DNA from: Burkholderiaceae bacterium
GTDB lineage: Bacteria; Pseudomonadota; Gammaproteobacteria; Burkholderiales; Burkholderiaceae_C
Length of the DNA: 37,083 nucleotides
Assembly: GCA_014879745.1 (NCBI GenBank)
Contig: JACSRM010000220.1
Span: forward strand, 1 to 37,083
Direction of reading: 5' to 3'
Position 1 is the first letter of the stretch. Every line of letters starts with the position of its first letter. The notes beneath the pieces were generated by a model. That model saw only the letters and a list, made by a program, of their open reading frames with translations, made no database searches and was not told the DNA's origin. Positions 8,539 through 36,561 of the stretch are shown here, piece after piece. The translations under genes were made by a program, and so were the position numbers.

Positions 8539-8653
8539 CACGGCAGGCGAAACGGAGGCGGGCAGGGACGATTCAGCGTTGACCGGGGTGGGTGACACGT
8601 CGGGGGCAGCGCGCAGTGCGCAAGGCGCTGGCGGTTGGCGGCGGCGGTGCAGA

Positions 8654-11636: not shown

Positions 11637-11672
11637 TCTCGCCGGCACGCTGCGCCGCATGGCGCGGCGAGA
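11637..11672 (-). terminator. Stem-loop downstream of the cold-shock gene
   Basis: On the minus strand, just after the cold-shock gene, an outer stem TCTCGCCG/CGGCGAGA brackets a nested inverted repeat GCGCC-GCAT-GGCGC. It probably ends the short cold-shock transcript before the acyltransferase gene. No run of T follows. The rest of the 146-base gap up to the acyltransferase start shows nothing clear. Confidence 0.4.
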
Positions 11673-11674
11673 GC

Positions 11675-11953
11675 CTATCGGTGGGGCGCGGAACCCGCCG
11701 GCGGTGCAGCGGCTGCGGACTGTGCCGGCGGCGCGGACGCTGCGGCTGCTTCGACGGCGCGGATCTCCTGCGCCATCCTGCCCTTGGGCCCCTGGGCGAT
11801 CTCGAAGCTCACCCGCCCGCCCTGGCGAAGGGTGCGAAAACCCTCCATCTGGATCGCCGAGAAATGCGCGAATACGTCGTCGCCGCCGTCGTCGGGCTGG
11901 ATGAATCCGAAACCTTTGGAGTCGTTGAACCACTTGACCGTTCCGACTGCCAT
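11675..11953 (-). CDS. Cold-shock domain protein with Ala/Pro tail
   Basis: Single-stranded nucleic-acid-binding cold-shock protein. Residues 1-67 form one [23 protein letters not shown] with RNP1 KGFGFI (13-18) and RNP2 VFAHF (27-31). Residues 68-92 are an Ala/Pro/Ser tail absent from the roughly 70-residue classical Csp proteins. I start it at 11953, 6 bases after GGGGAG, which gives the standard Csp N-terminus; an upstream in-frame start adds 12 residues of no homology. A strong sigma-70-like promoter lies about 40 bases upstream, and the transcript leader would be about 32 bases, too short for the long thermosensing leader of E. coli cspA. Which csp paralogue it is cannot be told. Confidence 0.93.
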
Positions 11954-11991
11954 CGCCGTCTCCCCACACGTCCCGCCGCAGCGGCGCAAGG

Positions 11992-12020
11992 ATTCTGCGC
12001 AGCGCCCGGATGGCTGTCAA
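11992..12020 (-). promoter_or_regulatory. Promoter of the cold-shock gene
   Basis: TTGACA (12015-12020), a 17-base spacer and CAGAAT (11992-11997) on the minus strand. The -35 is a perfect match and the -10 differs at one or two positions. The expected start of transcription is near 11985, leaving a leader of about 32 bases with a GGGGAG ribosome-binding site. Confidence 0.7.
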
Positions 12021-12096
12021 GGCGGACCGAAAAGGCGCCCCGTCGTGATGCAATTCGGTACTTGAGGAATGCCGATCCGGCGCAACATGGCAAGCA

Positions 12097-12124
12097 CTGA
12101 CAAGCGCAGTCCCATCTCTATAGA
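12097..12124 (+). promoter_or_regulatory. Promoter of clpS-clpA
   Basis: CTGACA (12097-12102), a 16-base spacer and TATAGA (12119-12124), followed by AT. Transcription would begin around 12130-12132, only a few bases before the clpS ATG at 12134, implying a leaderless or nearly leaderless mRNA. No Shine-Dalgarno precedes that ATG. The element is divergent from the cold-shock promoter, with about 75 bases between the two -35 boxes. Confidence 0.6.
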
Positions 12125-12133
12125 ATCGTCTTC

Positions 12134-12490
12134 ATGCCGCGTGAAAAGCCCAAGCTTCCTGCTGTGCGACCGAGCGTGCCGGCGCCCGACGAGGGGCAGG
12201 GCAGCGTGGTGGTCGAGCGGCAGGCCGCAAGGGTGGAACCTCCGCCGCTTTTTCAGGTCGTGCTGCTCAATGATGACTACACACCGATGGAGTTCGTCGT
12301 GATGATCCTGCAGGAATTCTTCAGCCACGATCTGGAAACGGCGACGCAGATCATGCTGAAGATCCATCACGAAGGTCGCGGGGTGTGCGGCGTGTTCACG
12401 AAGGACGTGGCCGCAACCAAGGTCGAAACGGTGTCCGCCGCCTCGAGGCGTCATGGTCACCCGCTGCAATGCATTCTGGAGGCCGCATGA
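12134..12490 (+). CDS. clpS: ClpAP protease adaptor ClpS
   Basis: Adaptor that delivers N-degron substrates to ClpAP. The 118-residue product has a flexible N-terminus (about residues 1-37) followed by the ClpS core: [27 protein letters not shown], with the DDYTPMEF segment that forms the N-degron pocket, [34 protein letters not shown], and a C-terminal HPLQC. The start at 12134 gives a length normal for betaproteobacterial ClpS. An in-frame GTG near 12206, preceded by a GAGGGG-like sequence, could give a form without the flexible N-terminus, which is the part that enters the ClpA pore. The stop overlaps the clpA start (ATGA). Confidence 0.95.
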
Positions 12491-14787
12491 TCGCCCAAGA
12501 ACTTGAAGTCAGCCTGCACATGGCGTTCGTCGAAGCACGCCAGCAGCGCCACGAGTTCATCACTGTCGAGCATCTGCTGCTCGCGCTGCTGGACAATCCA
12601 TCGGCGGCCGAGGTGCTGCGCGCCTGCTCGGCCAATACCGACGAGCTTCGCAAGAGCCTGGTGCAGTTCGTCAAGGAGAATACGCCCACCGTCGGCGGCG
12701 CCGACGAGGTCGACACCCAGCCGACGCTGGGCTTCCAGCGCGTGATCCAGCGCGCGATCATGCACGTGCAATCCACCGGCAGCGGCAAGAAGGAAGTCAC
12801 CGGCGCCAACGTCCTCGTCGCGATCTTCGGCGAGAAGGATTCGCACGCCGTCTACTACCTGCACCAGCAGGGCGTCACAAGGCTCGATGTCGTCAACTTC
12901 ATCGCCCACGGCATCAAGAAGTCCGACCCGCCGGAGCCGGCGAAGTCGGGCGACGGCCGCGGCGAGGGAGAGAAGGAAGAGAGCGAAGGCAAGGCCTCGC
13001 CGCTGGATCAGTTCACGCAGAACCTGAACCAGCTCGCGCGCGACGGCAAGATCGATCCGCTGATCGGCCGCGAGCACGAGGTCGAACGCGTGATCCAGAT
13101 CCTGTGCCGCCGGCGCAAGAACAATCCGCTGCTCGTCGGCGAGGCGGGCGTCGGCAAGACCGCGATCGCCGAAGGCCTGGCGTGGCGGATCACGCAGTCC
13201 GACGTGCCCGAGATCCTGGCCAACGCGACCGTCTATGCGCTCGACATGGGCGCGCTGCTGGCGGGCACCAAATACCGCGGCGACTTCGAACAGCGCCTGA
13301 AGGGTGTGCTCAAGAATATGAAGGAGGTGCCGGGCGCGATCCTCTTCATCGACGAGATCCACACCCTGATCGGCGCCGGCGCGGCGTCGGGCGGCACGCT
13401 CGATGCGAGCAATCTGCTCAAGCCGGCGCTCGGCTCGGGCGCGTTGAAATGCATCGGCGCGACGACCTTCACCGAATACCGCGGCATCTTCGAGAAGGAT
13501 GCGGCGCTGTCGCGGCGCTTCCAGAAGGTCGACGTGACCGAGCCTTCGGTCGAGCAGACGGTCGAGATCCTGAAGGGCCTGAAGTCGCGCTTCGAGGAGC
13601 ACCACAGCGTCAAGTACGCGCTCGGCGCGCTGCAGGCGGCGGCCGAGCTGTCGGCCAAGTTCATCAACGACCGCCACCTGCCCGACAAGGCGATCGACGT
13701 CATCGACGAGGCCGGCGCCGCGCAGCGCATCCTGCCGAAGAACAAGCAGAAGAAGACGATCAACCGCGCCGAAGTCGAGGATATCGTCGCCAAGATCGCG
13801 CGCATCCCGCCGGCGAGCGTCAGCAACGACGACCGCTCGAAGTTGAAGAGCCTGGACCGCGACTTGAAGAGCGTCGTCTTCGGCCAGGACCCGGCGCTCG
13901 ACGCGCTCGCCTCGGCGATCAAGATGGCGCGCTCGGGGCTGGGCAAGCCCGACAAGCCGATCGGCTCCTTCCTCTTCACCGGGCCGACCGGCGTCGGCAA
14001 GACCGAGGCCGCGCGCCAGCTCGCCTACATCCTCGGCATCGAACTCATCCGCTTCGACATGAGCGAGTACATGGAGCGCCATGCGGTGAGCCGCCTGATC
14101 GGCGCGCCCCCCGGCTACGTCGGCTTCGACCAGGGCGGGCTATTGACCGAGGCGATCAGCAAGAAGCCGCACGCGGTGCTGCTGCTCGACGAGATCGAGA
14201 AGGCGCACCCCGACGTCTTCAACGTGCTGCTGCAGGTGATGGACCACGGGACGCTGACCGACAACAACGGCCGCAAGGCGGACTTTCGCAACGTCATCAT
14301 CGTGATGACGACGAATGCCGGCGCCGAGACGATGAACAAGGCGACGATAGGCTTCACGAACGCGCGCGAGTCGGGCGACGAGATGGCCGACGTGAAGCGC
14401 CTCTTCACGCCCGAGTTCCGCAACCGGTTGGATGCGATCGTCAGCTTCAAGGCGCTCGACGAGGAGATCATCCTGCGCGTCGTCGACAAGTTCCTGCTCC
14501 AGCTCGAGGGCCAGCTCGCCGAGAAGAAGGTCGAGGTGACGTTCACCGACGGCCTGCGCAAGTACCTCGCGAAGAAGGGCTTCGATCCGCTGATGGGTGC
14601 GCGACCGATGCAGCGCCTGATCCAGGATACGATCCGCCGCGCGCTGGCCGACGAACTGCTCTTCGGCCGGCTCGTCGATGGCGGCCGGCTCACGATCGAC
14701 ATCGATGCGCAGGGTGCGATCGAACTCGACATTCAGCCGCAGCGCAAGAGCGACAAGCCCAAGGCGGAGCCCGCAACGGCCGATTGA
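12487..14787 (+). CDS. clpA: ATP-dependent Clp protease ATP-binding subunit ClpA
   Basis: AAA+ unfoldase that feeds substrates into ClpP. The 766-residue product has the N-terminal repeat domain (about 1-145) that docks ClpS, a charged linker (about 145-170), and two AAA modules. The Walker A motifs are GEAGVGKT (about residue 218) and GPTGVGKT (about 499), with the corresponding Walker B segments [13 protein letters not shown] and [16 protein letters not shown] ClpP-docking IGF tripeptide lies near residue 621, where E. coli ClpA has IGL. Length and linker fit ClpA rather than ClpB or ClpC. The start is fixed by the ATGA overlap with clpS, so the two are co-translated. A terminator-like hairpin follows. 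Confidence 0.97.
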
Positions 14788-14811
14788 AGTCGCAAGCGAT
14801 GCTTGTTCGAG

Positions 14812-14832
14812 CGGGGCCCCGAGTGGGCCCCG
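14812..14832 (+). terminator. Bidirectional terminator-like hairpin between clpA and mtfA
   Basis: A perfect 8-bp stem, CGGGGCCC and GGGCCCCG with a 5-base loop, lies 24 bases after the clpA stop and 19 bases before the convergent mtfA stop. It is followed by TTCCATTC on the plus strand. Its position between convergent genes supports termination of both transcripts. Confidence 0.6.
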
Positions 14833-14851
14833 TTCCATTCGGGCCGTGCGC

Positions 14852-15643
14852 TTAGCGCGCGTCTGGCGCGCCAGCCGGATTCTGGCGATAGAAGTCCGCC
14901 AACGCGGCATAGAGCGCCGGATGCTCGGCGCGCAGATCGAACGGCGCGACGAAGAAGGTTTCGCTCGCGACGGCAAAGAACTCTTCGAGCGACTCGCTCG
15001 CGTAGGGATCGAGCAGCGGCTCGTCGCCGCGGTCGACCACGTCGCACAGCGTCTCGTAGTGCGCCTGCATCACGGCGAGCCAGCGCTCGCGCGCCGCGCG
15101 GTTCGGCAGCGGCGGCACGCCGTCGGCAATGCCGTCGCGCATGTCGATCACGTGTGCGAATTCGTGGATCACGACGTTGTAGCCGTACTCGGCCGAGTCG
15201 CCGGAATCGGCGACGTCGCGCCACGACAGCATGACGGGGCCGCCTTCCATGGCCTCGCCGGCAAGCGATTCGTCGTATTCGTGGACGACGCCGGCCTCGT
15301 CCATGTGCTCTCGCCGCACCGATACCAGATCGGGGTGGACGACGATGCCGACAAAGCCGTCGTACCAGTCGAGGCCGAGTTCGAGCACCGGCAGGCAGGC
15401 TTGCGCCGCGATCGCCACCGCCATCTCGTCGGTCACCTGCAGGCCGTGGCCGCCGCTGAACTCCTTGCGGGCAAGAAAGAGCGTCGTCATCTCGCGCAGT
15501 CGGCGAAGATCCTGCGCCGGGCGCCGGGTCAGGAACGGATAGCGCGCCAGCGTCAACTGCCACAGCGCTTCGGGAATCGCGCGCTGTTCGAGGATGCGCG
15601 CTTCGCGCCGCTCGCGCAGCGCCTGCCACCAGTGCGCAATCAC
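14852..15643 (-). CDS. mtfA: Zinc-dependent peptidase MtfA (M90 family)
   Basis: Cytoplasmic metallopeptidase; in E. coli MtfA (YeeI) binds the glucose-responsive repressor Mlc (DgsA) and so affects ptsG expression. The 263-residue product has the gluzincin motif HEFAH at residues 160-164, inside NVVIHEFAHVIDMRDG. A downstream glutamate, in the YASESLEEFFAVASETFF segment, is where the third zinc ligand lies. The family N-terminal pattern (PFL, L..L...T..FL..K.F) is present. The start is the GTG at 15643, overlapping the lpxH stop (GTGA); longer in-frame extensions would read through lpxH. No Mlc or PTS gene is nearby, so the E. coli role should not be assumed. Confidence 0.9.
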   Translation of the reverse strand: MIAHWWQALRERREARILEQRAIPEALWQLTLARYPFLTRRPAQDLRRLREMTTLFLARKEFSGGHGLQVTDEMAVAIAAQACLPVLELGLDWYDGFVGIVVHPDLVSVRREHMDEAGVVHEYDESLAGEAMEGGPVMLSWRDVADSGDSAEYGYNVVIHEFAHVIDMRDGIADGVPPLPNRAARERWLAVMQAHYETLCDVVDRGDEPLLDPYASESLEEFFAVASETFFVAPFDLRAEHPALYAALADFYRQNPAGAPDAR

Positions 15644-16461
15644 GGCGCCGGCGTGGCCCCACTCGCCTGTGCGAGAGTGAGTCGCTCGAAGCCGGCGCGC
15701 GTGAGCCTGAGCACCTGCGCACGCCCGCCGCGGCTCGCATGGTCGAGATCCCAGTCGCTCAAGACGTGGCGCATGAATCCGGCCGCCAGCGGTGCGCTGC
15801 CGGGCCGATGCGTGTGGCCGTGAACGAGCGCGTGCGCGTCGGCGTTGCGCAGCCAGGCGGCCGCGGCGCCGGCGTCGATATCGGCGGCATCGGCCGGCAA
15901 CAGGCCTTCGGCGTTGCGCTGCTCGCTCGCGTGGCGCATCTGCGCCGCGTGCCGCCGCCGCTCGGCGAGCGGCAACGCGAGCGCCATCGCCTGCCATTGC
16001 GGATTGCGCACCATGGCGCGAAAGCGCTGGTATTCGGTGTCGGCCAGGCACAGCGCGTCGCCGTGCGTCAGCAGCACGCGCTGATCGAAGGCCGCCAGCA
16101 GCGTCGGGTCGGGCAGCGCGATCACCCCGCAATCGGCGAGCATCGCGTCGCCGAGCAGGAAGTCGCGATTGCCGGCCATGAAGCCGACGCGGCGCCGGCG
16201 TGCCGCCTGCTTCAGAATGTCAGCGCACTGCGCCTCGAAGCCTTCGAGTCGCGCATCGTCGCCGACCCAGGCATCGAACAGATCGCCGAGGATGAATACC
16301 GCGTCGGCCGTCGTGCCAAGCAGATATGCCGCCCACGCATCGAAGGTGCGCGGCATATCGGCCGCGAGGTGGATGTCGGAGATGAAGTCGATCGCCGACC
16401 AGCCCTCGGCGGCCGTCAGTTCGTGGGCGGCCGAAGGCACGCCGGCGGCGGCTGTGCTCAC
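15640..16461 (-). CDS. lpxH: UDP-2,3-diacylglucosamine pyrophosphatase LpxH
   Basis: Peripheral membrane metallophosphoesterase that cleaves UDP-2,3-diacylglucosamine to lipid X and UMP in lipid A synthesis. The 273-residue product has the full calcineurin-like motif set: DFISDIHL (D29, H31), [11 protein letters not shown] (D60), GNRDFLLG (N98, R99, D100), LTHGDALC and HGHTHRP. The start is the GTG at 16461, whose GTGA overlaps the ppiB stop. It is about 20-30 residues longer than E. coli LpxH, partly from an N-terminal Ala-rich segment; a later start cannot be excluded. Confidence 0.94.
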
Positions 16462-16967
16462 GCGGCGGCGACGATCTTGGCCGAGACGATGACGACGTCG
16501 TCGACCGGCACGTCGCCATGCCCGCCACGGCTCGCGGTGCGCACGCCTTCGATCGCATCGACGACGTCGCTGCCCGAGACGACCTTGCCGAAGACCGCAT
16601 AGCCCCAGCCCTGCGCATTCTCGGCCTTGTGATCGAGGAAGGCGTTGTCGGCGGTATTGATGAAGAACTGCGCGGTCGCCGAATGCGGGTCCGAGGTGCG
16701 CGCCATCGCGAGCGTGTAGTGCCGGTTCTTCAGGCCGTTGTTCGCCTCGTTGGCGATCGGTGCGCGTACGCGCTTCTGGTTCATGCCGGGTTCGAAGCCG
16801 CCACCCTGGATCATGAAGCCCTTGATGACGCGGTGAAAGACGGTGCCGTCGTAGTGCCCGGCACGCACGTAGTCGGCGAAGTTGGCGGCGGACTTGGGCG
16901 CGCTGGCGTCGTCGAGTTCGACGCGGATCGTGCCCTGGCTGGTTTCGAGATCGACGAGGGTGCTCAT
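16458..16967 (-). CDS. ppiB: Cytoplasmic peptidyl-prolyl cis-trans isomerase B (cyclophilin)
   Basis: Cyclophilin-type proline isomerase. The 169-residue product lacks a signal peptide and has the cyclophilin core: [23 protein letters not shown] with the catalytic arginine in FHRVI, the [19 protein letters not shown] block, and [18 protein letters not shown] near the C-terminus. The start at 16967 is 3 bases from the ppiA stop region, and the stop overlaps the lpxH GTG. It is a close paralogue of the neighbouring ppiA, consistent with tandem duplication and retargeting. Confidence 0.95.
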
Positions 16968-16970
16968 GGC

Positions 16971-17540
16971 TTACTTCTCCGCAGTGGCTGATTTGATGAC
17001 GACGGGTTGCAGCGGCACGTCGCCCGGGCCGGTCGGCACGGCCTTGATCTTGTCGACCACGTCCATCCCCGAGACGACCTTGCCGAAGACGGCGTAGCCC
17101 GCGCCGTCGCGCGCGTTGGCGGCGTCGAGGAAGTCGTTGTCCTTGACATTGATGAAGAACTGCGCGGTCGCCGAGTTCGGGTCGTTGGTGCGCGCCATCG
17201 CGACGCTGCCGCGCACGTTCACGAGGCCGTTGCGGCTTTCGAGAGGGATGGGCGCCCGGGTCGCCTTCTGCTTCAGGTCCGAGGTCATGCCGCCGCCCTG
17301 GATCATGAAGTTGCCGATCACGCGGTGAAAGATCGTGCCGTCGTAGTGGCCCGACTTGACGTATTGCAGGAAGTTGTCGACCGTCTTCGGCGCCTTGGCC
17401 GCATCGAGTTCGATCACGATGTCGCCCATCGTCGTCGCGAGCTTGACCTTCTGCGCAAGGGCGTTTGCACTCAAGCCGACACACAGTGCGAAGGCGGCGA
17501 GCACACGTGCGGTGCGCGGCGAACAGAGCTTGGAAAACAT
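16971..17540 (-). CDS. ppiA: Periplasmic peptidyl-prolyl cis-trans isomerase A (cyclophilin)
   Basis: Exported cyclophilin that speeds proline isomerisation in the periplasm. The 189-residue product has a signal peptide (residues 1-29, ending ANALAQ before [15 protein letters not shown]), then the cyclophilin fold with [38 protein letters not shown] and [23 protein letters not shown] sequence about 9 bases before the ATG at 17540 supports this start. It is followed by ppiB with a 3-base gap and preceded by a TPR gene 95 bases away. It may share a transcript with the ppiB-lpxH-mtfA chain. Confidence 0.95.
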
Positions 17541-19827: not shown

Positions 19828-20469
19828 ATGGCCCGCACCGTCACACCCGACTACTGGGACGATGCCTGCAAGCATCTTGCGCGTCGCGACCGCGTCATGC
19901 GCAAGCTCATCGCGCGCTCGGCCGACGGGCGCCTCGAGAGCCGCGGCGATGCGTTCACGACGCTCGCGCGATCGGTCGTCGGCCAGCAGATCTCGGTGCG
20001 CGCGGCGCAATCGGTCTGGGAACGCCTGACCGCGATCGTCGACGGCGCCGCGTCGGCGCTGGCGCCGACCGCGGTGCTTGCCCTGGATGCGCCAACGCTG
20101 CGCAGCGCGGGGCTTTCGGCACGCAAGGTCGAATATCTCACCGATCTGGCTCGCCACTTCGAATCGGGCAGGGTGCACGTCGCGCAGTGGCGCAAGATGG
20201 ACGACGAGGCGATCATCGAGGAGCTCGTCGCGATCCGCGGCATCGGGCGCTGGACGGCCGAGATGTTTCTCATCTTCCACCTGATGCGCCCGAATGTGCT
20301 GCCGCTCGACGATATCGGCCTGCTCAAGGGGATCAGCCTGAACTACTTCAGCGGCGAGCCCGTTTCGCGCGCCGAAGTGCGCGAGGTGGGCGACGCCTGG
20401 GCACCGTTTCGTTCGGTTGCCACATGGTACATTTGGCGCAGCCTAGACCCCCTGCCGGTGGCCTATTGA
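19828..20469 (+). CDS. DNA-3-methyladenine glycosylase II, AlkA/HhH-GPD superfamily
   Basis: Base-excision repair enzyme removing alkylated purines. The 213-residue product has the helix-hairpin-helix LVAIRGIGRWTAEM (about 133-146) and the GPD region with the catalytic aspartate in LPLDDIGLLKGI (D161/D162). It also has the upstream substrate-fold segment FTTLARSVVGQQISVRAA. It is the short form without the N-terminal domain of E. coli AlkA. Start choice is between the ATG at 19828 and a GTG two codons earlier (GTG ATC ATG); neither has a strong Shine-Dalgarno. It lies between cysS and accA, an order I recognise from Burkholderiales. Confidence 0.88.
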   Translation: MARTVTPDYWDDACKHLARRDRVMRKLIARSADGRLESRGDAFTTLARSVVGQQISVRAAQSVWERLTAIVDGAASALAPTAVLALDAPTLRSAGLSARKVEYLTDLARHFESGRVHVAQWRKMDDEAIIEELVAIRGIGRWTAEMFLIFHLMRPNVLPLDDIGLLKGISLNYFSGEPVSRAEVREVGDAWAPFRSVATWYIWRSLDPLPVAY

Positions 20470-24274: not shown

Positions 24275-24367
24275 GGAGTCGTGACCGAGTGGCCGAAGGT
24301 GCTCCCCTGCTAAGGGAGTAAGCGGGCAAAACCTGCTTCGAGGGTTCGAATCCCTCCGACTCCGCCA
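24275..24367 (+). tRNA. tRNA-Ser (anticodon GCT)
   Basis: The acceptor stem GGAGTCG (24275-24281) pairs with CGACTCC (24357-24363), followed by discriminator G and an encoded CCA (24365-24367). The anticodon stem CTCCC/GGGAG encloses the loop CTGCTAA, giving anticodon GCT (24309-24311), which reads AGC/AGU. A long variable arm and the GGTTCGAATCC T-loop region fit a class II serine tRNA. A TAGAAT hexamer at 24257-24262 could be its -10 box. Confidence 0.97.
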
Positions 24368-24610: not shown

Positions 24611-25825
24611 ATGATCACACCCAAGGCTCGTGGACTCCATGCATTTGCGGCGCTGCTGCTGGCCGCATCGCTTGCCGCCTGCAGCCCGGAGAAATCGGCA
24701 CCGGCCGGCGCCGGTGCGCCGCCGCCGGCCGAAGTCGGCGTCGTCACGGTGACGCCGCAGGTCGTCGGCCTGGCGGTCGAACTGCCGGGGCGGCTCGAGG
24801 CGACGCGCGTCGCCCAGGTTCGCGCCCGCGTCGCCGGCATCCTGCAAAAGCGCCTGTTCAAGGAGGGCAGCGACGTCAAGGCGGGGCAGGTGCTGTTCCA
24901 GATCGACGCCGCGCCGTATCACGCCGCGTATGAGAGCGCGCAGGCGGTGCTCGCCCGGGCGAAGGCCAACCTCGTGCAGTCGACGGCGCAGGTCGATCGC
25001 TTCAAGCCGCTGCTGCAGGCCAACGCCATCAGCCGCCAGGACTTCGACAACGCGGTCGCGGCGCAAAAGCTCGCCGAGGCCGACGTGCAGGCCGGCAAGG
25101 CAGCGGTCGAGACGGCGAGGATCAATCTCGGCTATGCGACCGTCACCTCGCCGATCGCGGGGCGCATCGGCCGCTCACTGGTCACCGAAGGTGCGCTCGT
25201 CGGGCAGGGCGAGGCGACCCAGCTCGCCGTGGTGCAGCAGATCGATCCGATGTACGTCAATTTCACGCAGTCGGCGACCGACCTGCTGCGCCTGCGCAGG
25301 GCGGTCGAAAGCGGGGTCTTCAAGCGCGCCGGAACGGATGGCGCGAGCGTGCGTGTCGCGCTGGAGGATGGCAGCGTCTACAAGCTGCCGGGCAAGCTGC
25401 TGTTCTCGGATCTGAGCGTCGATCCGACGTCGGGCCAGATCATGCTGCGCGCCGAGATCCCGAACCCGCAGGGGCTGCTGCTGCCCGGGCTGTACGTGCG
25501 CGTGCGCCTCGAGCAGGCGCAGGCGCAGGCCGGGATCGTCGTGCCGCAGCAGGCGGTGCAGCGCGGCTCGACCGGCGACAGCGTGATGGTCGTCGGCGGC
25601 GACGGCAAGGTCACGCCGCGCCGGGTGACGATCGGCCGATCCGTCGACGGGCAGTGGGTCGTGCTCGACGGCCTGAAGGCGGGCGAGACGGTGATGGCCG
25701 ACGGTTTTCAGAAGCTGCGCGGCGATGCACCGGTGAAGCCCGTGCCGTGGAAACCGGCGGCCGAATCCGCGCCGGCCGGGGCCGCATCGGCCGCGCCGGC
25801 TGCATCGGCCGCCTCCGGCACCTGA
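24611..25825 (+). CDS. RND efflux periplasmic adaptor (membrane fusion protein, AcrA/MexA family)
   Basis: Lipoprotein that couples the inner-membrane pump to the outer-membrane channel. The 404-residue product has a lipoprotein signal peptide with lipobox LAAC. Next come a lipoyl half-motif (VEVPGRLEA-like ELPGRLEATRVAQVRARVAGILQKRLFKEGSDVKAGQVLFQID), a coiled-coil hairpin (AKANLVQSTAQVDRFKPLLQ onward), then the second lipoyl half ATVTSPIAGRIGRSLVTEGALV and beta-barrel/membrane-proximal domains. It ends in an Ala/Pro tail. GGAAGA lies 8-9 bases before the ATG at 24611; the GTG at 24590 is less likely. It is the first gene of a three-gene operon, 13 bases before the pump gene. Substrates are unknown. 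Confidence 0.94.
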   Translation: MITPKARGLHAFAALLLAASLAACSPEKSAPAGAGAPPPAEVGVVTVTPQVVGLAVELPGRLEATRVAQVRARVAGILQKRLFKEGSDVKAGQVLFQIDAAPYHAAYESAQAVLARAKANLVQSTAQVDRFKPLLQANAISRQDFDNAVAAQKLAEADVQAGKAAVETARINLGYATVTSPIAGRIGRSLVTEGALVGQGEATQLAVVQQIDPMYVNFTQSATDLLRLRRAVESGVFKRAGTDGASVRVALEDGSVYKLPGKLLFSDLSVDPTSGQIMLRAEIPNPQGLLLPGLYVRVRLEQAQAQAGIVVPQQAVQRGSTGDSVMVVGGDGKVTPRRVTIGRSVDGQWVVLDGLKAGETVMADGFQKLRGDAPVKPVPWKPAAESAPAGAASAAPAASAASGT

Positions 25826-28800: not shown

Positions 28801-29000
28801 GCGGCGCCGGCTCGGCCAGCCAGCGTGCGATCGGCACCGGCGTGATGGGCGGGATGTTTACCGCGACGCTGCTCGCGATCTTCTTCGTGCCGGTCTTCTT
28901 CGTCGCCGTTCGCAGCCGCTTCAAGGGCAGCGAGCGGCAGCGCCGGCTCTACAGCCACCCGAGCGAGAAGCCGCCGGCGGCCGGGGAGGGCGCATCGTGA
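25839..29000 (+). CDS. RND multidrug efflux pump, HAE1 family (AcrB/MexB-like)
   Basis: Trimeric proton-driven inner-membrane pump. The 1053-residue product has the full two-fold RND architecture: twelve membrane helices with two large periplasmic loops. The N-terminus MPRFFIDRPIFAWVIALFI is typical of HAE1. Proton-relay aspartates D407 and D408 lie in GILVDDAIVVIENV, exactly matching AcrB numbering, and the partner lysine is K936 in LSAKNAILIIEF (AcrB K940). The Gly-rich and Phe-rich pore regions look intact. The stop overlaps the start of the outer-membrane gene (GTGA). Length and motifs point to a drug/organic-solvent class pump, not the metal class; exact substrates are not predictable. 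Confidence 0.96.
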   Translation: MPRFFIDRPIFAWVIALFILVLGGVAINRLPVSQYPTVAPPAIVLTAVYPGASAQTLENSVISVIEQEMNGSPGLIYMESVSQANGSGSVTLTFEAGTDANLAQVDVQNRLSRAAPRLPSAVTQQGVRVDKARSNFLLFTILSSDNPAYDPIALGDFASRNVLPEIQRLRGVGQAQLFGTERAMRIWIDPAKLVGFGLAATDVNAAIRAQNAQVASGSIGDLPNIPGQGIYATLVVNGQLTSVEQFGNIVLRANTDGSSVRLRDVARIELGGQSYGTSARLNGKPSTGIGVQLSPTGNALETATLIRQRMAELAVYFPPGVKWDIPYDSSRFVKISINQVVQTLVEAVVLIFLVMYLFLQNLRYTLIPTVVVPVSLLGAFGMMYVFGFSINVLTMFAMVLAVGILVDDAIVVIENVERIMSEEGLPPREATKKAMGQITAALVGITVTLVSVFLPMALFGGSVGNIYRQFSLVMVSSMLFSIFLANSLTPALCATFLKPVEAGHKHVKRGFFGWFNRGFLAATHGYESTVARMLRRTTRFMLLFGVIVALVAFLFDRMPESFLPNEDQGYIIANVQLPPGATQERTRAVMEKVESFMLAQPEVAQMVSVLGFSFSGSGQNAALAFVTLKPWEERSGPQHSAQALAGRAFGALSGVRDAFIFTLSPPSIPELGTATGFTFRLQDRGGNGHEALVAARNQLLGMAAQSKVLTGVRPDGLEDAPQLQIDIDRDRASALGVSFESVNTVLSTALGSAYVNDFPNAGRLQRVVVQADAPDRMQGDDLLALNVQNNLGKLVPLSSFATTRWVTGPMQKIRYNGYPTMRIAGDAAPGFSTGEAMNEMEALAARLPPGFAFEWTGLSREERLSGSTAMILLAFSMLAVFLCLAALYESWSIPFAVLLAVPLGVLGAVLAANMRGLPNDIFFKVGLITVIGLSAKNAILIIEFAKDLHAEGMSLIDATLKAAHLRFRPILMTSIAFIFGVLPLVVSSGAGSASQRAIGTGVMGGMFTATLLAIFFVPVFFVAVRSRFKGSERQRRLYSHPSEKPPAAGEGAS

Positions 29001-30596: not shown

Positions 30597-31277
30597 ATGG
30601 ACGCCACCACCCGCCGCCTGCTGACCGGCTACGGCCTGTTCGACCAGCGTGACGATCTGGCGGCGCATGCTCACGTGCGCCCGGATCTCGTCGTCTGCGA
30701 CGAGTGCGACGCGGTCTACAAGCGGCGCGCGCTGGCTCACAACGAGACGGCGCGCTGCCTGCGCTGCGGCTCCATGATCGGCCGCGGGCACGCGCTCACG
30801 GTCGATGGACAGCTGGCCCTCGCGATCGCCGCGCTGCTGGTCTTCATCATCGGCAATGTCTCCGACATCGTCACGCTCAACGTCGCCGGTGTGCAGTCGC
30901 CCGTCACGCTCTACGAGTCGATCCGCTCGACCTGGGTTACCGGGCAGCACCTGGTTGCGCTGCTCGCGGCGGCGACCGCGTTCGCCTTTCCGCTCGCCGT
31001 CATCCTGCTGCGCCTGTATGTGCTGCTGCCGCTCGTGGCCGGCGTGCGCGTGAACGGTTTCGTGCCGGCGATGCGTGCGCTGCGCTGGGTGACGCACTGG
31101 AGCATGGTCGAGGTCTTCCTGTTCGGCGCGCTGGTCGCGATCGTGAAGAGCGCGGGCCTTGCGAGCGTGATTCTCGGCGCCGGCATCTTCTCGTATGCGG
31201 TCCTCACATTTCTGCTGGCGGCGAACCAGGCCGTCGGTCTGCACGGCCTGTGGCGCCGTGCGTCGGAGCTGCGCTGA
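30597..31277 (+). CDS. pqiA: Paraquat-inducible protein A family, first half-protein (PqiA1)
   Basis: Inner-membrane component of the Pqi lipid-transport system linking inner and outer membranes. The 226-residue product carries one of the two PqiA modules: a zinc-ribbon-like pair, CDEC and CLRC (about residues 34-37 and 54-57), then four membrane helices with the YESI and HWSMVEVF patterns. In E. coli both modules are in one protein of about 417 residues; here the second module is a separate gene 79 bases downstream. The ATG at 30597 has no strong Shine-Dalgarno. The 148 bases between the efflux operon and this gene show no clear promoter beyond a lone TTGACG at 30480. Confidence 0.88.
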   Translation: MDATTRRLLTGYGLFDQRDDLAAHAHVRPDLVVCDECDAVYKRRALAHNETARCLRCGSMIGRGHALTVDGQLALAIAALLVFIIGNVSDIVTLNVAGVQSPVTLYESIRSTWVTGQHLVALLAAATAFAFPLAVILLRLYVLLPLVAGVRVNGFVPAMRALRWVTHWSMVEVFLFGALVAIVKSAGLASVILGAGIFSYAVLTFLLAANQAVGLHGLWRRASELR

Positions 31278-31356
31278 TGAGCCTGTCGCCCGGCCGCCCG
31301 AAGATGCGCCCGCTCCCCCGCGGAGGGGTCGGTGCGAAGCACCGTGAGGGGCTGCG
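31278..31356 (+). repeat. Intra-operon GC-rich palindromic element, copy B (between the two pqiA half-genes)
   Basis: Occupies the entire gap between the pqiA1 stop and the pqiA2 start. It opens with ATGAGCC, then CGCCCGGCCGCCC (31287-31299), identical in 13 bases, order and orientation to copy A in the ccm operon. It contains a perfect hairpin CGGTGC-GAA-GCACCG (31330-31344) and a CCCC/GGGG pair. It ends with GAGGGG 5 bases before the pqiA2 ATG, thus providing its ribosome-binding site. The other junctions of this operon overlap, which makes the spacer look inserted. Confidence 0.6.
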
Positions 31357-31989
31357 ATGAGCGTTGCGCCGGTGGCAGATAGCGTGCCGACCGGTCGCGC
31401 CCTCGGGCTGCTCGGCTGCGAGTGCTGCGGGCTGGTGAGCGAAGCCAAGGGCGGCGACGGACGCTGCCCGCGCTGCCATTTCGCGCTTCATGCGCGCAAG
31501 CCCGACAGCCTGCAGCGCTGCACCGCGTACATCATCGCGGCCACCGTGCTCTACATTCCCGCCAACGTGCTGCCGATCATGAGCACCGCGAGCTTCGTCT
31601 ACGGGCGCGAGCAGCACACCATCCTCGGCGGCATCGTCGAGCTCTGGACGACCGGGTCATGGGAGTTGTCGGTGATCGTCTTCATCGCCAGCATCGCGGT
31701 GCCGATCCTGAAGATCCTCGCCCTCGCGCTGCTCGTCGTCACCGCGCAGCGCCGCTCGCGCTGGCGCCAGATCGAACGGGCGAGCCTGTACCGGCTGCTC
31801 GAGACGGTCGGCCACTGGTCGATGCTCGATGTCTTCGTCGTCGTCCTGCTCGTCGGCATGGTGCGCTTCGGCGCGCTCGCCAACGTCGAGCCGTCCGCCG
31901 GGCTGCTCGCCTTTGGCGCGGTCGTCGTGCTCACCATGCTCGCGTCGACGAGTTTCGACCCCCGCCTGATCTGGCCCGCCGATGACTGA
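31357..31989 (+). CDS. pqiA: Paraquat-inducible protein A family, second half-protein (PqiA2)
   Basis: Carries the second PqiA module of the Pqi lipid-transport system. The 210-residue product has a CECC...CPRC zinc-ribbon-like region (about residues 22-48), then four membrane helices with IPANVLPIMSTASF, GGIVELWTTGSWELSVIVF and the HWSMLDVFVVVLLVG signature matching PqiA. The start at 31357 is preceded by GAGGGG at 5 bases, inside the repeat element. Its stop overlaps pqiB by 8 bases. Presumably it pairs with the upstream half-protein in the membrane. Confidence 0.9.
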   Translation: MSVAPVADSVPTGRALGLLGCECCGLVSEAKGGDGRCPRCHFALHARKPDSLQRCTAYIIAATVLYIPANVLPIMSTASFVYGREQHTILGGIVELWTTGSWELSVIVFIASIAVPILKILALALLVVTAQRRSRWRQIERASLYRLLETVGHWSMLDVFVVVLLVGMVRFGALANVEPSAGLLAFGAVVVLTMLASTSFDPRLIWPADD

Positions 31990-33694
31990 GACCACCGACA
32001 CCCCGCAGGAGCCCGACGCGAGCGTCCCGGAGATGACGGTCGTGCGCCGCAAGCGCATGCGCGTGTCGCTCGTCTGGCTGGTGCCGATCGCGGCGCTCGT
32101 CGTCGGCGCTATCCTGGTCGTGCGGGCGCTGACCTCGGTCGGCCCCGAGATCACGATCACCTTTCGCACCGCCGAAGGGCTCGAACCGGAGCGCACCGAG
32201 GTGCGCTTCAAGGAAGTCGCCGTCGGCAAGGTCAGCCGGGTCGCGCTGAGCCCGGATCGCGAGCGGGTGCTGGTGACGGTGAAGCTCGACAAGAGCGCCG
32301 AAAGCCTGGCTGTCGACGATACCCGTTTCTGGGTCGTCAAGGCGCGCGTCGGTCTGGCCGGCGTGACCGGTCTGGGCACGCTTTTCTCCGGCTCCTACAT
32401 CGGCGTCGATGCCGGCGCTTCGGAAGAGGGCCGTACCTATTTCACCGGCCTCGAATCGCCGCCGCTCGTGCTGCGCGACGAGCCGGGACGGATCTTCCAC
32501 CTGGATGCCGACGAGCTCGGATCGCTCGACGTCGGCTCGCCGGTCTACTACCGGCGTGCGCGGGTCGGCCGGGTCGTCGGCTACGCGCTCGATGCAGTGC
32601 GCGACACGCTCGACGTGCAGGTGCTGATCGAAGCGCCGAACGAGCGGCTCGTGACGAATCGATCGCGCTTCTGGAACGCGAGCGGGGTCGACGTGACGCT
32701 CGATGCGAATGGCTTCCAACTCAATACCGAGTCGCTCATCTCTCTGATCGCGGGCGGTGTGGCGTTTGCCAATGTCGACGACGAGGGCAGGGCAGAGCCG
32801 GCCGACGCCGAGAGCCGATTCGAGCTTTTCTCGACCCGCAAGGCGGCGCTCGCGCCGCCCGACGGCCCCGCGCAGCGCATCCGCATGGTGTTCGAACAGG
32901 CACAGCGCGGGCTGGTCGTCGGTGCGCCGGTGGATATGCTCGGCATCCAGATCGGCAAGGTGCGCGGCGTGCGGCTGATGAACAAGGAGGGGAGCGAGAA
33001 GTTCCCGGTCGAAGTCACTGCCGATCTCTTCCTGGAGCGCCTGGGCTCGGTGCGCAGCGCCTTCAAGGTGCCAGCCGGCGCCGAGACGCGGGCCGACGCG
33101 CTCTTCCTGAAGCGCCTCGTCGATGCCGGCATGCGAGCCCAGGTGCGCACCGGCAATCTGCTCACCGGCCAGCTCTACGTCGCGCTCGACTTCCCGCCCA
33201 AGGTCGAGAAGGCGACGATGGACGCCAATGCCGAGCCGCCGACGGTGCCGAGCATTCGCGGCACGCTCGCCGACCTGCAGCCGCAGATCGCCGATATCGT
33301 CGCCCGCGTCGGCAAGATCCGCTTCGACGAGATCGGCAAGGAACTGCAGTCGACCCTACAGCGGGCGGGGGCGGCGAGCGACGGCCTGAAGGATACGCTG
33401 GCGAGCGCGAACGCGACGATCAAGCTCCTGACGCCCGAGGCGCAGCGCGCACTCGTCGATGTGCAGAAGACGCTGACCTCGGCGCAGACGACCCTCGCCA
33501 ACCTCGATCGCAACGTCACGCAGGCCGAAGCGCCGCTGCAGCAGAACGTGAACCAGGCGCTGGTCGAGATGCGGCGCGCCGCGCAGGCGCTGCGCGTGCT
33601 GGCCGACTACCTTCAGCGCCACCCCGAGGCGCTGCTGCGCGGCAAGCCGGCCGATCCCGATCCAGCCAGCCTGAGCAGCGAGACCAAGAAATGA
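31982..33694 (+). CDS. pqiB: MCE-domain lipid transport protein PqiB
   Basis: Inner-membrane anchored protein whose MCE domains stack into a needle-like tunnel crossing the periplasm, thought to move phospholipids between membranes. The 570-residue product has one membrane helix (about 28-48) and three MCE domains: about 53-145 (ITITFRTAEGLEPERTEVRFKEVAVGKVSRV), about 165-255 (GSPVYYRRARVGRVVGYAL) and about 295-400 (GAPVDMLGIQIGKVRGVRL). A long helical C-terminus (about 430-550) completes the PqiB layout. The start overlaps pqiA2 by 8 bases and the stop overlaps pqiC by 4. Confidence 0.94.
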   Translation: MTETTDTPQEPDASVPEMTVVRRKRMRVSLVWLVPIAALVVGAILVVRALTSVGPEITITFRTAEGLEPERTEVRFKEVAVGKVSRVALSPDRERVLVTVKLDKSAESLAVDDTRFWVVKARVGLAGVTGLGTLFSGSYIGVDAGASEEGRTYFTGLESPPLVLRDEPGRIFHLDADELGSLDVGSPVYYRRARVGRVVGYALDAVRDTLDVQVLIEAPNERLVTNRSRFWNASGVDVTLDANGFQLNTESLISLIAGGVAFANVDDEGRAEPADAESRFELFSTRKAALAPPDGPAQRIRMVFEQAQRGLVVGAPVDMLGIQIGKVRGVRLMNKEGSEKFPVEVTADLFLERLGSVRSAFKVPAGAETRADALFLKRLVDAGMRAQVRTGNLLTGQLYVALDFPPKVEKATMDANAEPPTVPSIRGTLADLQPQIADIVARVGKIRFDEIGKELQSTLQRAGAASDGLKDTLASANATIKLLTPEAQRALVDVQKTLTSAQTTLANLDRNVTQAEAPLQQNVNQALVEMRRAAQALRVLADYLQRHPEALLRGKPADPDPASLSSETKK

Positions 33695-34311
33695 ACCCTG
33701 GCTTCACTCCCATTCGCCGCCGCTTCGCCTGCGCGGCCGCAGCGCTGGCGGTGCTGTCGGCGCTCGCCTCCGGCTGCAGTTCGCCGCCGGCGACGCGCTA
33801 CTACACATTGATGCCGCCGCCCACCGCAGGCGACCGCGCTGCGGCCGCGCTTCGCCTCGACTGGGAGCTGTTGCCGGTCGTCGTGCCGGCACAGATCGAC
33901 CAGCCGCAGTGGGTCGTGCGCAAACCCGACGGCAGCCTTGCCGTCCTCGAACAGGAACGCTGGATCGCGCCGCTTGGCGACGAACTCCGCGGCGCCATCG
34001 TCGAACGTCTGACCCGGTCCTTCGGGCCGCCACGCGCGGCAGCGTCGGCAGATGGAGCGCCGCAATGGCGCATCCGCGTCGAGGTTCAGCGCTTCGACCT
34101 GATCCCGAATCAAGAGGCAAGGCTGGCCGCCGACTGGTCGGTGCGTGGTGCAGGCGCCGCCACCGTCTGCCACGCCGATATCTCGAAACCGGTGCCCGGG
34201 CTCGACTACATCGACCTTGCGCGCGGACAGCAGCAGGCAATCTCGCAACTCGCCGATGTGATCGGCGCGGCGCTTCTCGCGGCAAGCAAGGGCCAAGCGA
34301 TCACCTGCTGA
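33691..34311 (+). CDS. pqiC: Outer-membrane lipoprotein PqiC (ABC-type transport auxiliary family)
   Basis: Lipoprotein that anchors the tip of PqiB at the outer membrane. The 206-residue product has a lipoprotein signal with the cysteine in ALASGCSSPPATRYYTL; the C-S-S-P...YYTL start is the hallmark of this family (YmbA/PqiC). The body includes LPVVVPAQIDQPQWVVR and WIAPLGDELRGAIVERL, and WRIRVEVQRFD, matching the conserved beta-alpha pattern. The ATG overlaps the pqiB stop by 4 bases. It is the last plus-strand gene before the orientation switch at the dif-like site. Confidence 0.9.
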   Translation: MNPGFTPIRRRFACAAAALAVLSALASGCSSPPATRYYTLMPPPTAGDRAAAALRLDWELLPVVVPAQIDQPQWVVRKPDGSLAVLEQERWIAPLGDELRGAIVERLTRSFGPPRAAASADGAPQWRIRVEVQRFDLIPNQEARLAADWSVRGAGAATVCHADISKPVPGLDYIDLARGQQQAISQLADVIGAALLAASKGQAITC

Positions 34312-34412
34312 CGGCAGCAAGGGGTGACGCCGGGTTCGGCCCCGCGTGTGCAGGGCCATGCACGCAAATCCGGGGCCGACTCGGGTGCCATGCTTCAACC
34401 GTAGGATCTTAT

Positions 34413-34440
34413 ACTTGACATAATATACATTGTCGCAATG
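34413..34440 (+). other. dif: Probable chromosomal dif site (XerC/XerD recombination site)
   Basis: A 28-bp AT-rich island in a GC-rich convergent gap. On the plus strand it reads ACTTGACATAA (XerD-type arm, 34413-34423), TATACA (centre, 34424-34429), TTGTCGCAATG (XerC-type arm, 34430-34440). Against the E. coli dif arm ATTTAACATAA the XerD arm matches 9 of 11, the centre matches 6 of 6, and 14 consecutive bases (ACATAATATACATT) are identical. The XerC arm is more diverged, as is usual between species. Gene direction flips here, and the six GGGNAGGG motifs found to the left all point toward it. A Xer site used by an integrated element is the alternative, but no element is present. Confidence 0.75.
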
Positions 34441-34700
34441 TTCAGTCTGGTGTCCGAGAACGCCTGGGCGCCGTATGGGTCCGACCGGTCCCGTTCAACA
34501 AGGAATGCAGCCCGAGGAAGCTCGGTTGCTCGGTTGCCGTGATTCACGCGCTGCGGTCTGCTGCCGTCGAAGCTCGACCGGCTCGCTCACCCTTCGCCTC
34601 GCGGCGCAACTCGCGCCTGAGACGGGACTGATCGAGTCCGGAACTGGAGCCGGACTGCGGACAAATTAGTCAATAGATCCAGTGCGATACAACGCAGACG
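34441..34700. other. Gap between dif-like site and the small minus-strand gene
   Basis: No gene can be supported here. A 79-codon frame starting at a TTG inside the dif-like site runs through it on the plus strand but has Arg/Cys/Gly-rich composition without recognisable features and no ribosome-binding site. The 100 bases between the pqiC stop and the dif-like site also hold nothing I recognise. Confidence 0.5.
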
Positions 34701-34715
34701 TGATGTAAAACATCA
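34701..34715. terminator. Short inverted repeat at the 3' end of the small minus-strand gene
   Basis: TGATGT and ACATCA flank an AAA loop, and the repeat includes the stop codon of the small gene. On the minus strand the loop reads TTT and no T-run follows, so it is a weak terminator candidate; it could equally be a protein-binding site near dif. Confidence 0.3.
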
Positions 34716-34940
34716 TGTGTTGCGAGGGTCCGGATCGCTCTCGGTTTCGGTCTGGGCTTCGATCGCATCGTCGGCTGCGTCGCCGCCCGAACCGCTGCAC
34801 GCGATGACCGGCTTGTCCAGCGGTCGGCAGATCCGGCGCTGCAGGCGCTCGAGCCGGTCGGATCGGGCGATCGCCTGAAGCACGGCCTCCGGGTTCATCA
34901 TCAATTCGAACGGATTGGCTATCGACCTGGGCTCTTGCAT
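34713..34940 (-). CDS. Small protein of unknown function (75 residues)
   Basis: I do not recognise a named family. The product begins MQEPRSIANPFELMMNPEAV and continues LQAIARSDRLERLQRRICRP, followed by LDKPVIACSG. It has a charged amphipathic helix in the middle, and the last 25 residues are acidic and probably disordered (DAADDAIEAQTETESDPDP). The pattern NPFELMMNPEAVL and RICRPLDKP resembles short hypothetical proteins I have seen in Burkholderiales, but that is memory, not a search. AGGAG lies 6-7 bases before the ATG at 34940, the best ribosome-binding site in this part of the window, so the longer in-frame start at 34982 is unlikely. It is soluble with no signal peptide. It sits just beside the dif-like site. 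Confidence 0.75.
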   Translation of the reverse strand: MQEPRSIANPFELMMNPEAVLQAIARSDRLERLQRRICRPLDKPVIACSGSGGDAADDAIEAQTETESDPDPRNT

Positions 34941-35092
34941 GACGTGCTCCTGGGCAATGCTTGCGTTTCGATACCAGTCCACTTTAGCCGGTCTGGTGCG
35001 CAGCGGAAGTCATCCTTGCCCCATACCGGTCGTCAGGCAAATGCTGACATCGCCAATGCGTCACGCTTTCGCGGTTCCGAGCCCAGCCTCTC

Positions 35093-35716
35093 CTATCTGG
35101 GCAGGCGCTGCACCAGCCATTCGCGCCCGCCGCCTTGCGCGAAATCGGCGGCATTCATATTGCGGGCATTGATCCGCTTCGGGTCGGCGCCACGCGCCAG
35201 CAGCAGCATCACGCTTTCTTCCGGGCCGTAGCGCGCCGCCATCATCAGCGGCGTTGTCTTGTCGGGCGATTCGGCGTCCACCACGGCGCCGCGGTCTAGC
35301 AGCAATTTCACGACCTTGGGTTCGGCTCCGGTCGCCGCATAGTGAAGCGGCGTCCAGCCCGGCTTGTTGACGCTCGCGCCGCGCGCCAGCAACCGCTCGC
35401 ACCAGGCCAGGTTGCCGCGCAGCGCGGCCATCATCAATGCCGACTCGCCGGACGCATTGAGCGCATTGACGTTCAGGTCGGGCCGCGCCATCAGCGCCTC
35501 GGCGACCGCAAGATTCTCCGCCTGGAGTGCCAGCACAAGTGCGACATTGCCCGACGGGTCCGGTGTATTGGGATCGAAGCCTCGTTGCAGCAATTCGGTC
35601 ACGCTGCCGCCGTCGTTGCGTTTAACGGCGACGAAGAAGTCCTCGTACGAGCCTGCAAGTGCCGAATAACTTGCAAATAAAACAATAAGATAGATTATCG
35701 TCTTCAAGTATTTCAT
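35093..35716 (-). CDS. Exported ankyrin-repeat protein
   Basis: The 207-residue product has a signal peptide (MKYLKTIIYLIVLFASYSALAG) and then about five ankyrin repeats. Examples are DPSGNVALVLALQAENLAVAEALMARPDLNVN, NASGESALMMAALRGNLAWCERLLARGASVN, WTPLHYAATGAEPKVVKLLLDRGAVVDA and KTTPLMMAARYGPEESVMLLLARGADPKR. It is therefore predicted to act in the periplasm as a protein-binding scaffold. The start is either the ATG at 35716 or one two codons earlier (35722); neither has a clear Shine-Dalgarno. It follows tatD by about 20-25 bases on the same strand. The first 25 codons are noticeably AT-richer than the neighbours. The partner is unknown. Confidence 0.88.
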   Translation of the reverse strand: MKYLKTIIYLIVLFASYSALAGSYEDFFVAVKRNDGGSVTELLQRGFDPNTPDPSGNVALVLALQAENLAVAEALMARPDLNVNALNASGESALMMAALRGNLAWCERLLARGASVNKPGWTPLHYAATGAEPKVVKLLLDRGAVVDAESPDKTTPLMMAARYGPEESVMLLLARGADPKRINARNMNAADFAQGGGREWLVQRLPR

Positions 35717-35741
35717 GATCATTGGCGTGGGCAAGACGCCA

Positions 35742-36521
35742 CTATTCAACGCGTTTGAACAGGCGCTCGAAGTTGGCGCTGGTCGCTTCGGCGACGGTTT
35801 CGACCGGGCATCCCTTCAGGGTTGCGAGCTGCCGCGCGACATGCACGACGTAGGACGGATTGTTGAGTCGGCCTCGGTGCGGTACCGGCGCCAGATACGG
35901 GCTGTCGGTCTCGATCAGGCATCGATCGAGAGGGACGAAGCGCGCCACCTCCTGCAGGTCGGTGGCGTTGCGAAATGTCAGGATGCCGGAGAAGGAGATA
36001 TGGAAGCCGAGGTCCAGCGCCGCCCGCGCAACCTCCATCGTCTCGGTAAAGCAGTGAAAGACGCCGCCCGCCGCCGCGGCGCCCTCCTCCCGCAGGATCG
36101 CCAAGGTATCCTGCGATGCGCTGCGGGTGTGCACGACAAGCGGCAGGCCGGCCGCGATCGCGGCCCGGATGTGGACGCGAAAGCGCTCGCGCTGCCACGC
36201 CATGTCCTGCACGCTGCGGCCGGCAAGGCGGTAGTAGTCGAGGCCGGTCTCGCCGATCGCGACCACGCGCGGCTTCGCCGCCAGCGCGACCAGGTCGTCG
36301 AGCGTCGGCTCGCGCACGCCCTCGCTGTCCGGATGCACGCCGGCGCTGGCCCAGAGGTTGTCGTAACGCATCGCGAGCGCGTGTACCTCGGGAAATTCCT
36401 CGAGCGTGGTGCAGATGCACAGGGCCCGATCGACATCGGCCTGCGCCATCGCGGCGCGGATCTCGTCGATGCGCGATGCGAGTTCGGGGAAGCTCAGATG
36501 GCAGTGCGAGTCGACGTACAT
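35742..36521 (-). CDS. tatD: TatD-family metal-dependent hydrolase (DNase)
   Basis: TIM-barrel metallohydrolase of the TatD/YcfH group, 3'-5' exonucleases linked to DNA repair and RNA or peptide processing. The 259-residue product has the metal ligands in order: DSHCH (H6, H8), GETGLDYY (E91), VVHTRSA (H131), FHCFTE (H156) and IETDSPYLAP (D206). Length is typical (about 260). Position next to pilZ suggests the YcfH-type paralogue found in the holB-pilZ-tatD cluster, not the Tat-operon gene. The start at 36521 gives the canonical MYVDSHCH N-terminus; the longer open frame upstream would overlap pilZ. Confidence 0.93.
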   Translation of the reverse strand: MYVDSHCHLSFPELASRIDEIRAAMAQADVDRALCICTTLEEFPEVHALAMRYDNLWASAGVHPDSEGVREPTLDDLVALAAKPRVVAIGETGLDYYRLAGRSVQDMAWQRERFRVHIRAAIAAGLPLVVHTRSASQDTLAILREEGAAAAGGVFHCFTETMEVARAALDLGFHISFSGILTFRNATDLQEVARFVPLDRCLIETDSPYLAPVPHRGRLNNPSYVVHVARQLATLKGCPVETVAEATSANFERLFKRVE

Positions 36522-36561
36522 GCGAAGGCCGCTGCGGCGTGCGTGCGCCGCCGGCGCGCTC

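Follow-up and report, generated by a model that had tools for sequence, protein, structure and literature searches.

Evidence for a chromosomal dif site with a family-type XerC arm in a Burkholderiaceae genome, and a candidate pairing between XerC residue 221 and base 6 of that arm

The locus

The window, i.e., the whole stretch of 37,083 nucleotides analyzed here, corresponds to bases 1-37083 of contig C526 in a genome assembly of 535 contigs that is 96.84% complete. Toward its right end, pqiC on the plus strand and an 89-aa ORF on the minus strand face each other across an intergenic gap, in agreement with the convergent arrangement described in the original prediction. The gap holds a 28-bp site and has the following surroundings.

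30597..34311, plus strand: two PqiA genes, a PqiB-like MlaD protein and a PqiC-like lipoprotein (Pfam)
34312..34712, no strand: convergent intergenic gap of 401 bp holding the site; pqiC (plus) ends at 34311 and the 89-aa ORF (minus) has its stop at 34713
34413..34440, minus strand in XerC-to-XerD order: very likely dif site, 28 bp (sequence, single copy, conservation, KOPS convergence)
34413..34423, minus strand: XerD arm TTATGTCAAGT in dif orientation (layout compared with published dif; XerD gene at G000:C47)
34424..34429, minus strand: central hexamer TGTATA, identical to the centre of E. coli dif (PMC2731167, Table 1)
34430..34440, minus strand: XerC arm CATTGCGACAA, family type with an AC[AG]A inner end (comparison with 30 counted family sites)
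34713..34982, minus strand: 89-aa ORF without a Pfam match, conserved in the genus (Pfam, locus comparison)
35093..36527, minus strand: ankyrin-repeat protein and TatD DNase (Pfam, locus comparison)

A PilZ protein is also encoded on the minus strand to the right of the site. The 89-aa ORF shares 54-79% identity with its counterparts in other members of the genus. An ankyrin-repeat and/or TatD relative adjoins dif in 12 of 27 family loci (about 3 kb each, own locus left out), and the neighborhood therefore looks old. At the order level, a TatD relative also adjoins the site of G052 (L002). Two further ORFs, at 33909-34418 (plus) and 33613-34398 (minus), both overlap pqiC and were taken as spurious; the former extends 6 bases into the site.

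In the genus relative G004, dif and the conserved 89-aa ORF are separated by about 3.6 kb (L039, 5389-9030) missing from the window. This stretch carries an M20-peptidase-like ORF and a membrane-protein-like ORF, both judged by eye, and a search allowing up to 3 mismatches found no further dif-like copy. No RNA or tRNA feature was found at the site itself, the sole match in the window being a tRNA-Ser (gct) gene at 24275-24367. Repeats around the site are limited to short families, which were taken as chance.

The 28-bp site

The plus-strand letters at 34413-34440 are ACTTGACATAATATACATTGTCGCAATG. Read on the minus strand, the site becomes CATTGCGACAA-TGTATA-TTATGTCAAGT, in the order XerC arm, centre and XerD arm; base 6 of the XerC arm is a C, opposite the G at 34435. 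The original prediction had proposed a 28-bp site of 11-6-11 layout at this place, and its letters and coordinates are exact. Its count of 19 of 28 positions shared with E. coli dif, including a run of 14 identical bases, was reproduced by hand against Table 1 of PMC2731167.

Allowing up to 3 mismatches, the 14-base core has a single match in the window, with 0 mismatches, and 6 of 100 shuffles also give one match. At the same threshold the complete 28-mer occurs once in the 4,504,894-base assembly (reversed control, 0), which answers the second-copy search that had been suggested, and a dif with the canonical arm (TTNACATAATATACATTNTGCGCA) has no match elsewhere in this genome at up to 3 mismatches. 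On a weight matrix derived from 30 family sites other than that of the window, the site reaches 42.1 bits, against 12.7 bits for the best of 200 shuffles. The same site scores 6.3 bits on the opposite strand, as it is nearly palindromic, and the next unrelated position of the window scores -5.3 bits. The match to dif is far above chance.

KOPS polarity and position of the terminus

Given that the assembly is split into 535 contigs, the polarity of the FtsK-guiding KOPS motif GGGNAGGG was used as the terminus test for this genome in place of whole-replicon skew. The motif search returned six copies in the window, all of them directed toward the site.

8560..8567, plus strand: KOPS GGGCAGGG, toward the site
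12194..12201, plus strand: KOPS GGGCAGGG, toward the site
20166..20173, plus strand: KOPS GGGCAGGG, toward the site
25202..25209, plus strand: KOPS GGGCAGGG, toward the site
28983..28990, plus strand: KOPS GGGGAGGG, toward the site
32785..32792, plus strand: KOPS GGGCAGGG, toward the site

The plus/minus counts in the window are thus 6/0 on the left and 0/0 on the right, and as many copies occur in 14 of 100 shuffles. Only 2.6 kb of the window, devoid of KOPS, lies to the right of the site, so that two-sided convergence rests on relatives. Within the genus, the counts are 8/0 left and 0/1 right in G003, 2/0 and 0/4 in G004, and 3/0 and 0/3 over the whole 24,475-base contig of G001. With these contigs in the same orientation as the window, 27 of 27 KOPS point toward the site (left 19/0, right 0/8); the copy at offset -1639 is common by descent to the window and G004, so that independence does not hold for every one of the 27. 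Polarity was ranked for all 16,384 words of the type NNNnNNNN in the DNA of the window, G001, G003 and G004; for G001, the ranking took 20,000 bases of the 24,475-base contig and therefore 26 KOPS in all. Among the 4,436 words with at least 20 copies, GGGNAGGG is the most polarized and the only one at 100%, the next reaching 95%.

Three more distant members of the family, chosen for their long contigs, were examined over 200 kb on either side of their sites. KOPS counts are 46/9 left and 3/50 right in G030, with a switch located -1.4 to +4.7 kb from the site, 59/7 and 7/52 in G007 (-1.3 to +2.9 kb), and 37/9 and 9/38 in G019 (+3.0 to +3.2 kb); 44 of the 326 copies in the three genomes point away from the site. 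Cumulative GC skew places its maximum 8.7 kb left of the site inside the window, and 38.5 kb left, 27.9 kb left and 24.9 kb right of it in G030, G007 and G019, respectively. Neither in the window nor in these relatives does the maximum coincide with the site, which counts against it; offsets of 25-39 kb are nevertheless ordinary, since the distances given in Table 1 of PMC2731167 span 146 bp to about 103 kb. A switch of KOPS polarity at dif has been reported across most replicons examined (PMC13342612, 2026). Location of the site where the replichores meet is supported in the relatives, and we infer the same position for this genome. With this site, the terminus is anchored in a genome that is otherwise fragmented. 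More generally, a dif can be validated through KOPS polarity on short contigs from relatives where whole-replicon skew is out of reach.

Conservation in relatives and the family-type XerC arm

A 17-bp core was searched in 60 genomes at up to 2 mismatches. It is present in 49 of them including our own, i.e., in 48 of the 59 others, and is single in 43 of the 49; the reversed control gave 12 matches in 8 of the 60 genomes. Three of four genus relatives (G001, G003, and G004) carry the site. The fourth, G002, whose genome is 87% complete, yielded no match to the 17-bp core and no convincing one with a looser pattern. Applied to the 11 genomes without a core match, this looser pattern matched in 8, convincingly in G024 (family type) and G048 (canonical). 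The other matches are scattered and chance-like (e.g., G012, G016, and G050), and the reversed control is similar for several of these genomes.

The inner end of the XerC arm reads A8 C9 [AG]10 A11 in 30 of 30 counted family sites, a count that leaves out the window, both G008 sites and G023; among the sites left out, G008b fits the family signature (ACGA) and G008a and G023 do not. At the order level, base 9 is T in 16 of 18 rows and C in none, bearing in mind that these rows include G053b, which is the G053a site on the opposite strand. Judged from these alignments, the arm that had been called diverged carries a family signature, AC[AG]A in place of ATAA. The earlier suggestion of a lineage variant is borne out by this comparison with other dif sites of the family and order, which had also been proposed. 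This type is already visible in the dif site published for Rhodoferax (PMC2731167), and the XerC side of dif is known to be more variable than the XerD side (PMC2731167; PMC3025954). The dif site is ordinary in kind, with a XerC arm typical of its lineage.

Recombination machinery and proposed mechanism

The genome encodes the enzymes expected to act at dif. XerD is found at G000:C47 (355.7 bits, above the cut-off) and the FtsK gamma domain at G000:C466 (89.3 bits). XerC, at G000:C291, scores 333.1 bits, 2 bits below the NCBIfam cut-off, and is the best match; the reading frame upstream of its gene is dapF-like (by eye), as in the dapF-yigA-xerC arrangement of E. coli. By analogy with E. coli, and in the minus-strand reading of the site, the left arm would be the target of XerC and the right arm that of XerD. 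FtsK, likely guided by the GGGNAGGG motifs pointing to the site, would switch on XerD there, and a chromosome dimer could then be resolved into two monomers by cutting and rejoining. We infer the binding of the arms, the sequence of cleavages and the activation by FtsK from the E. coli system. The XerC arm is probably read by a XerC bearing Arg at a position where most examined XerC proteins from outside the family have Gln or Glu.

Xer-using mobile elements and other readings of the site

Mobile elements do exploit family-type dif sites. In G008, a filamentous provirus encoding Rep_trans, TspB and Zot (L040, about 9716-17403, equivalent to G008:C1:1805716-1813403) is bounded by two dif-like sites on the same strand, 7.66 kb apart, one of which lacks the XerC arm. 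The provirus contains no KOPS; in the 30 kb examined, four plus-strand KOPS lie to its left, and four minus-strand and two plus-strand KOPS to its right. Family-type dif sites are also present on 14 IMG/VR contigs (L180-L193) of 6-19 kb, except for L191, which has 71 kb. Zot, Rep or TspB relatives resembling those of filamentous phages were found on 13 of the 14, L191 being the exception. Contigs L187 and L188 show the XerD arm twice, at spacings of 8.0 and 7.4 kb, and in one of the copies the XerC side is GC-rich and unlike dif. The genus-type site occurs in none of the viral contigs. Phages that use the family-type site imply, without proving it, that the variant XerC arm works.

Such elements lend some substance to the idea that the site in the window belongs to a Xer-using phage, plasmid or pdif module, as its attachment scar or recombination site, and is not the chromosome's own dif, given the G008 provirus lodged between two dif-like sites and the phage genes on 13 of the 14 viral contigs. 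Yet the site is single in its genome, with no second dif-like copy flanking element genes, its neighbors are ordinary chromosomal genes kept in genus relatives, and KOPS converge on it; we therefore consider a mobile-element origin very improbable. Fortuitous resemblance of a promoter or operator to dif deserves even less credence. In its favor are a TTGACA hexamer at 34415-34420 (by eye), TATA-like words and the short inverted repeat ACATTG-TCG-CAATGT at 34427-34441 (by eye). However, no sigma-70-type site was found in 33600-35400, the intergenic gap is convergent, other genomes of the family have sites of this 28-bp layout between different flanks, and the inverted repeat is not kept in the three genus relatives, in which the arm ends in CAAGT. 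Finally, the notion of an AT-rich island arising by chance in GC-rich DNA draws on AT-richness only and is refuted by the weight-matrix score (42.1 bits against a shuffle maximum of 12.7) and by the recurrence of the site in relatives, which leaves it a negligible probability.

We thus hold with great confidence that the window contains a bona fide chromosomal dif, very likely the site of chromosome-dimer resolution by XerC/XerD. The function assigned in the original prediction, dimer resolution for this replicon, accords with KOPS convergence, the single copy, conservation in relatives and the presence of the enzymes.

XerC residue 221 and base 6 of the XerC arm

Residue 221 of XerC, numbered on the genome's own match, corresponds to Q221 of E. 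coli XerC and W224 of E. coli XerD, and presumably to E262 of Cre (alignment by eye). Its identity tracks base 6 of the XerC arm. In 76 XerC/dif pairs, Arg occurs with C 12 times, Trp with A 19 times and Gln or Glu with G 42 times; the rows outside this scheme are Arg with T in G009, Tyr with T in G037 and Ala with A in G103. E. coli fits the pairing, its XerC having Gln with G6 and its XerD having Trp.

The pairing was first seen in 47 rows, 30 from the family and 17 from the order, one of which had a XerD-like top match (G038) that was later replaced. The expected pairing was written down before adding 30 pairs: 27 class genomes, G150, G026 and the replaced G038. The class genomes came from a sample of 30 that were hand-picked among the matches listed (184 searched, 157 with a match). 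As many as 29 of the 30 added pairs were as expected, and G103, with Ala facing A, fails. Twenty-six of these 29 belong to the common Gln/Glu-G class and are weak evidence; the others are G150 (Arg-C), G026 (Trp-A), and G038 (Gln-G).

The 76-pair set leaves out G004 (XerC not found), G023 (doubtful site), G158 (a site-like match, with no XerC/XerD match at 1e-60) and G196 (only XerD found). The second-ranked match was used for G038, G191 and G200, where the top match is XerD, and also for G013. The match closest to a full dif was used for genomes with several site-like matches (G008, G035, G039, G049, G053, G055, G150, and several class genomes). The XerD signature NHGADLR is absent from all 76 XerC rows and present in 24 of 24 XerD proteins; the XerC pattern tested is missing in one XerC row (G191). 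The residue of XerD at the W224 position is Trp in 24 of 24 examined. The arms of these XerD proteins have the matching base, which provides no independent support since the search patterns fixed it.

Among 2,048 pairs of a XerC column with an arm position, residue 221 and base 6 rank first, with a normalized mutual information of 0.779. Residue 65 and base 9 follow at 0.743. In the numbering of the L102 match, column 65 is Leu (once Ile) beside C9 in 14 family XerC proteins and Arg or Lys beside T9 in 15 others, one of them XerD-like. We rejected residue 65 and base 9 as a recognition pair, since the shift belongs for the most part to the root of the family and descent confounds it. Against arm base 10, the XerC columns fitted less tightly, residue 221 sorting 83% of the family rows, and base 6 was retained as the better one.

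A tree built without the columns around residue 221 was used to place the changes; it is weak, 6 of its 73 inner branches being starred. The tree places 5 changes of residue class and 6 of the base; every one of the 5 shares its branch with a base change, an outcome seen in 0 of 200,000 random placements. No other column of the 256 shares 5 changes; column 218, one helical turn away, shares 4 of its 10. The joint Gln/Glu class was defined only once the data had been seen; if the two residues are kept apart, column 221 changes 11 times, with 5 changes shared with the base. The independent-pairs test, applied to residue 221 and base 6, has 1-2 supported pairs (sign test p 0.5-1) and is underpowered.

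The most telling case is G150, an Arg-C pair inside a Trp-A clade, for which the site on the 4.39-Mb contig (C6) was used. A second dif-like site of this genome, at G150:C3:81146-81169 (L255), has the arm ACTACATATAA with A6 and lies on a 104.8-kb contig that is perhaps a plasmid or secondary replicon; this site would break the pairing. In the XerH-difH structure (PMC5241119), most contacts of the catalytic domain are with the backbone and sequence-specific reading is confined to the five inner bases of each arm, so that base 6 would lie just outside. Both the second G150 site and the structure lower the odds that we give to the pairing. On balance we lean slightly toward a model in which residue 221, in the major-groove helix of XerC, reads arm base 6 (Trp with A, Arg with C, Gln or Glu with G), the pairing having been rewired at the family root, split again inside the family and switched back once, in G150, with enzyme and site changing together. 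The pairing is a strong lead and no proof.

Co-evolution of Xer enzymes and dif arms was proposed in general terms by Carnoy and Roten (PMC2731167). Earlier work cited there assigns dif positions 23 and 24 a part in XerD specificity and predicts a contact between Q221 of XerD and position 24; the mirror position of arm base 6 is 23. Table 1 of the same paper lists alphaproteobacterial XerD arms beginning with TTATGGAA, with C at the base equivalent to base 6, and XerC arms with C6 as well, e.g., the TCCCATAA types of the delta group. No description of covariation between the residue and the base appeared among the titles and opening abstract lines of the matches listed, a scope outside of which most subscription journals lie. 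The pair makes Xer specificity testable by swaps of one residue and one base, and in this respect outweighs in importance the dif site itself.

Comparison with known dif sites

The integrative elements known as IMEX, such as CTXphi and VGJphi (PMC5357621), use the same kind of XerC/XerD target, as seen here in G008 and the viral contigs. The window differs from them in having one site and no provirus. Among the published sites of Table 1 in PMC2731167, the dif of Rhodoferax ferrireducens (Carnoy and Roten, 2009) matches the site at 22 of 28 positions by hand count. The two share the centre, 10 of 11 XerD-arm bases and the A8 C9. A11 inner end, and differ at XerC-arm bases 1, 2, 6, 7 and 10 and at one XerD-arm base. 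Base 6 is A in Rhodoferax and C in the window, and the inner end is ACGA in the former and ACAA in the latter. With respect to E. coli K-12 dif (PMC2731167), 9 of 28 bases are different, 7 of them in the XerC arm (CATTGCGACAA in the window against GGTGCGCATAA in E. coli), whereas the 11-6-11 layout, the identical centre and the 14-base identical run are held in common. In E. coli K-12 as well, KOPS run from the origin to the terminus (PMC2680272).
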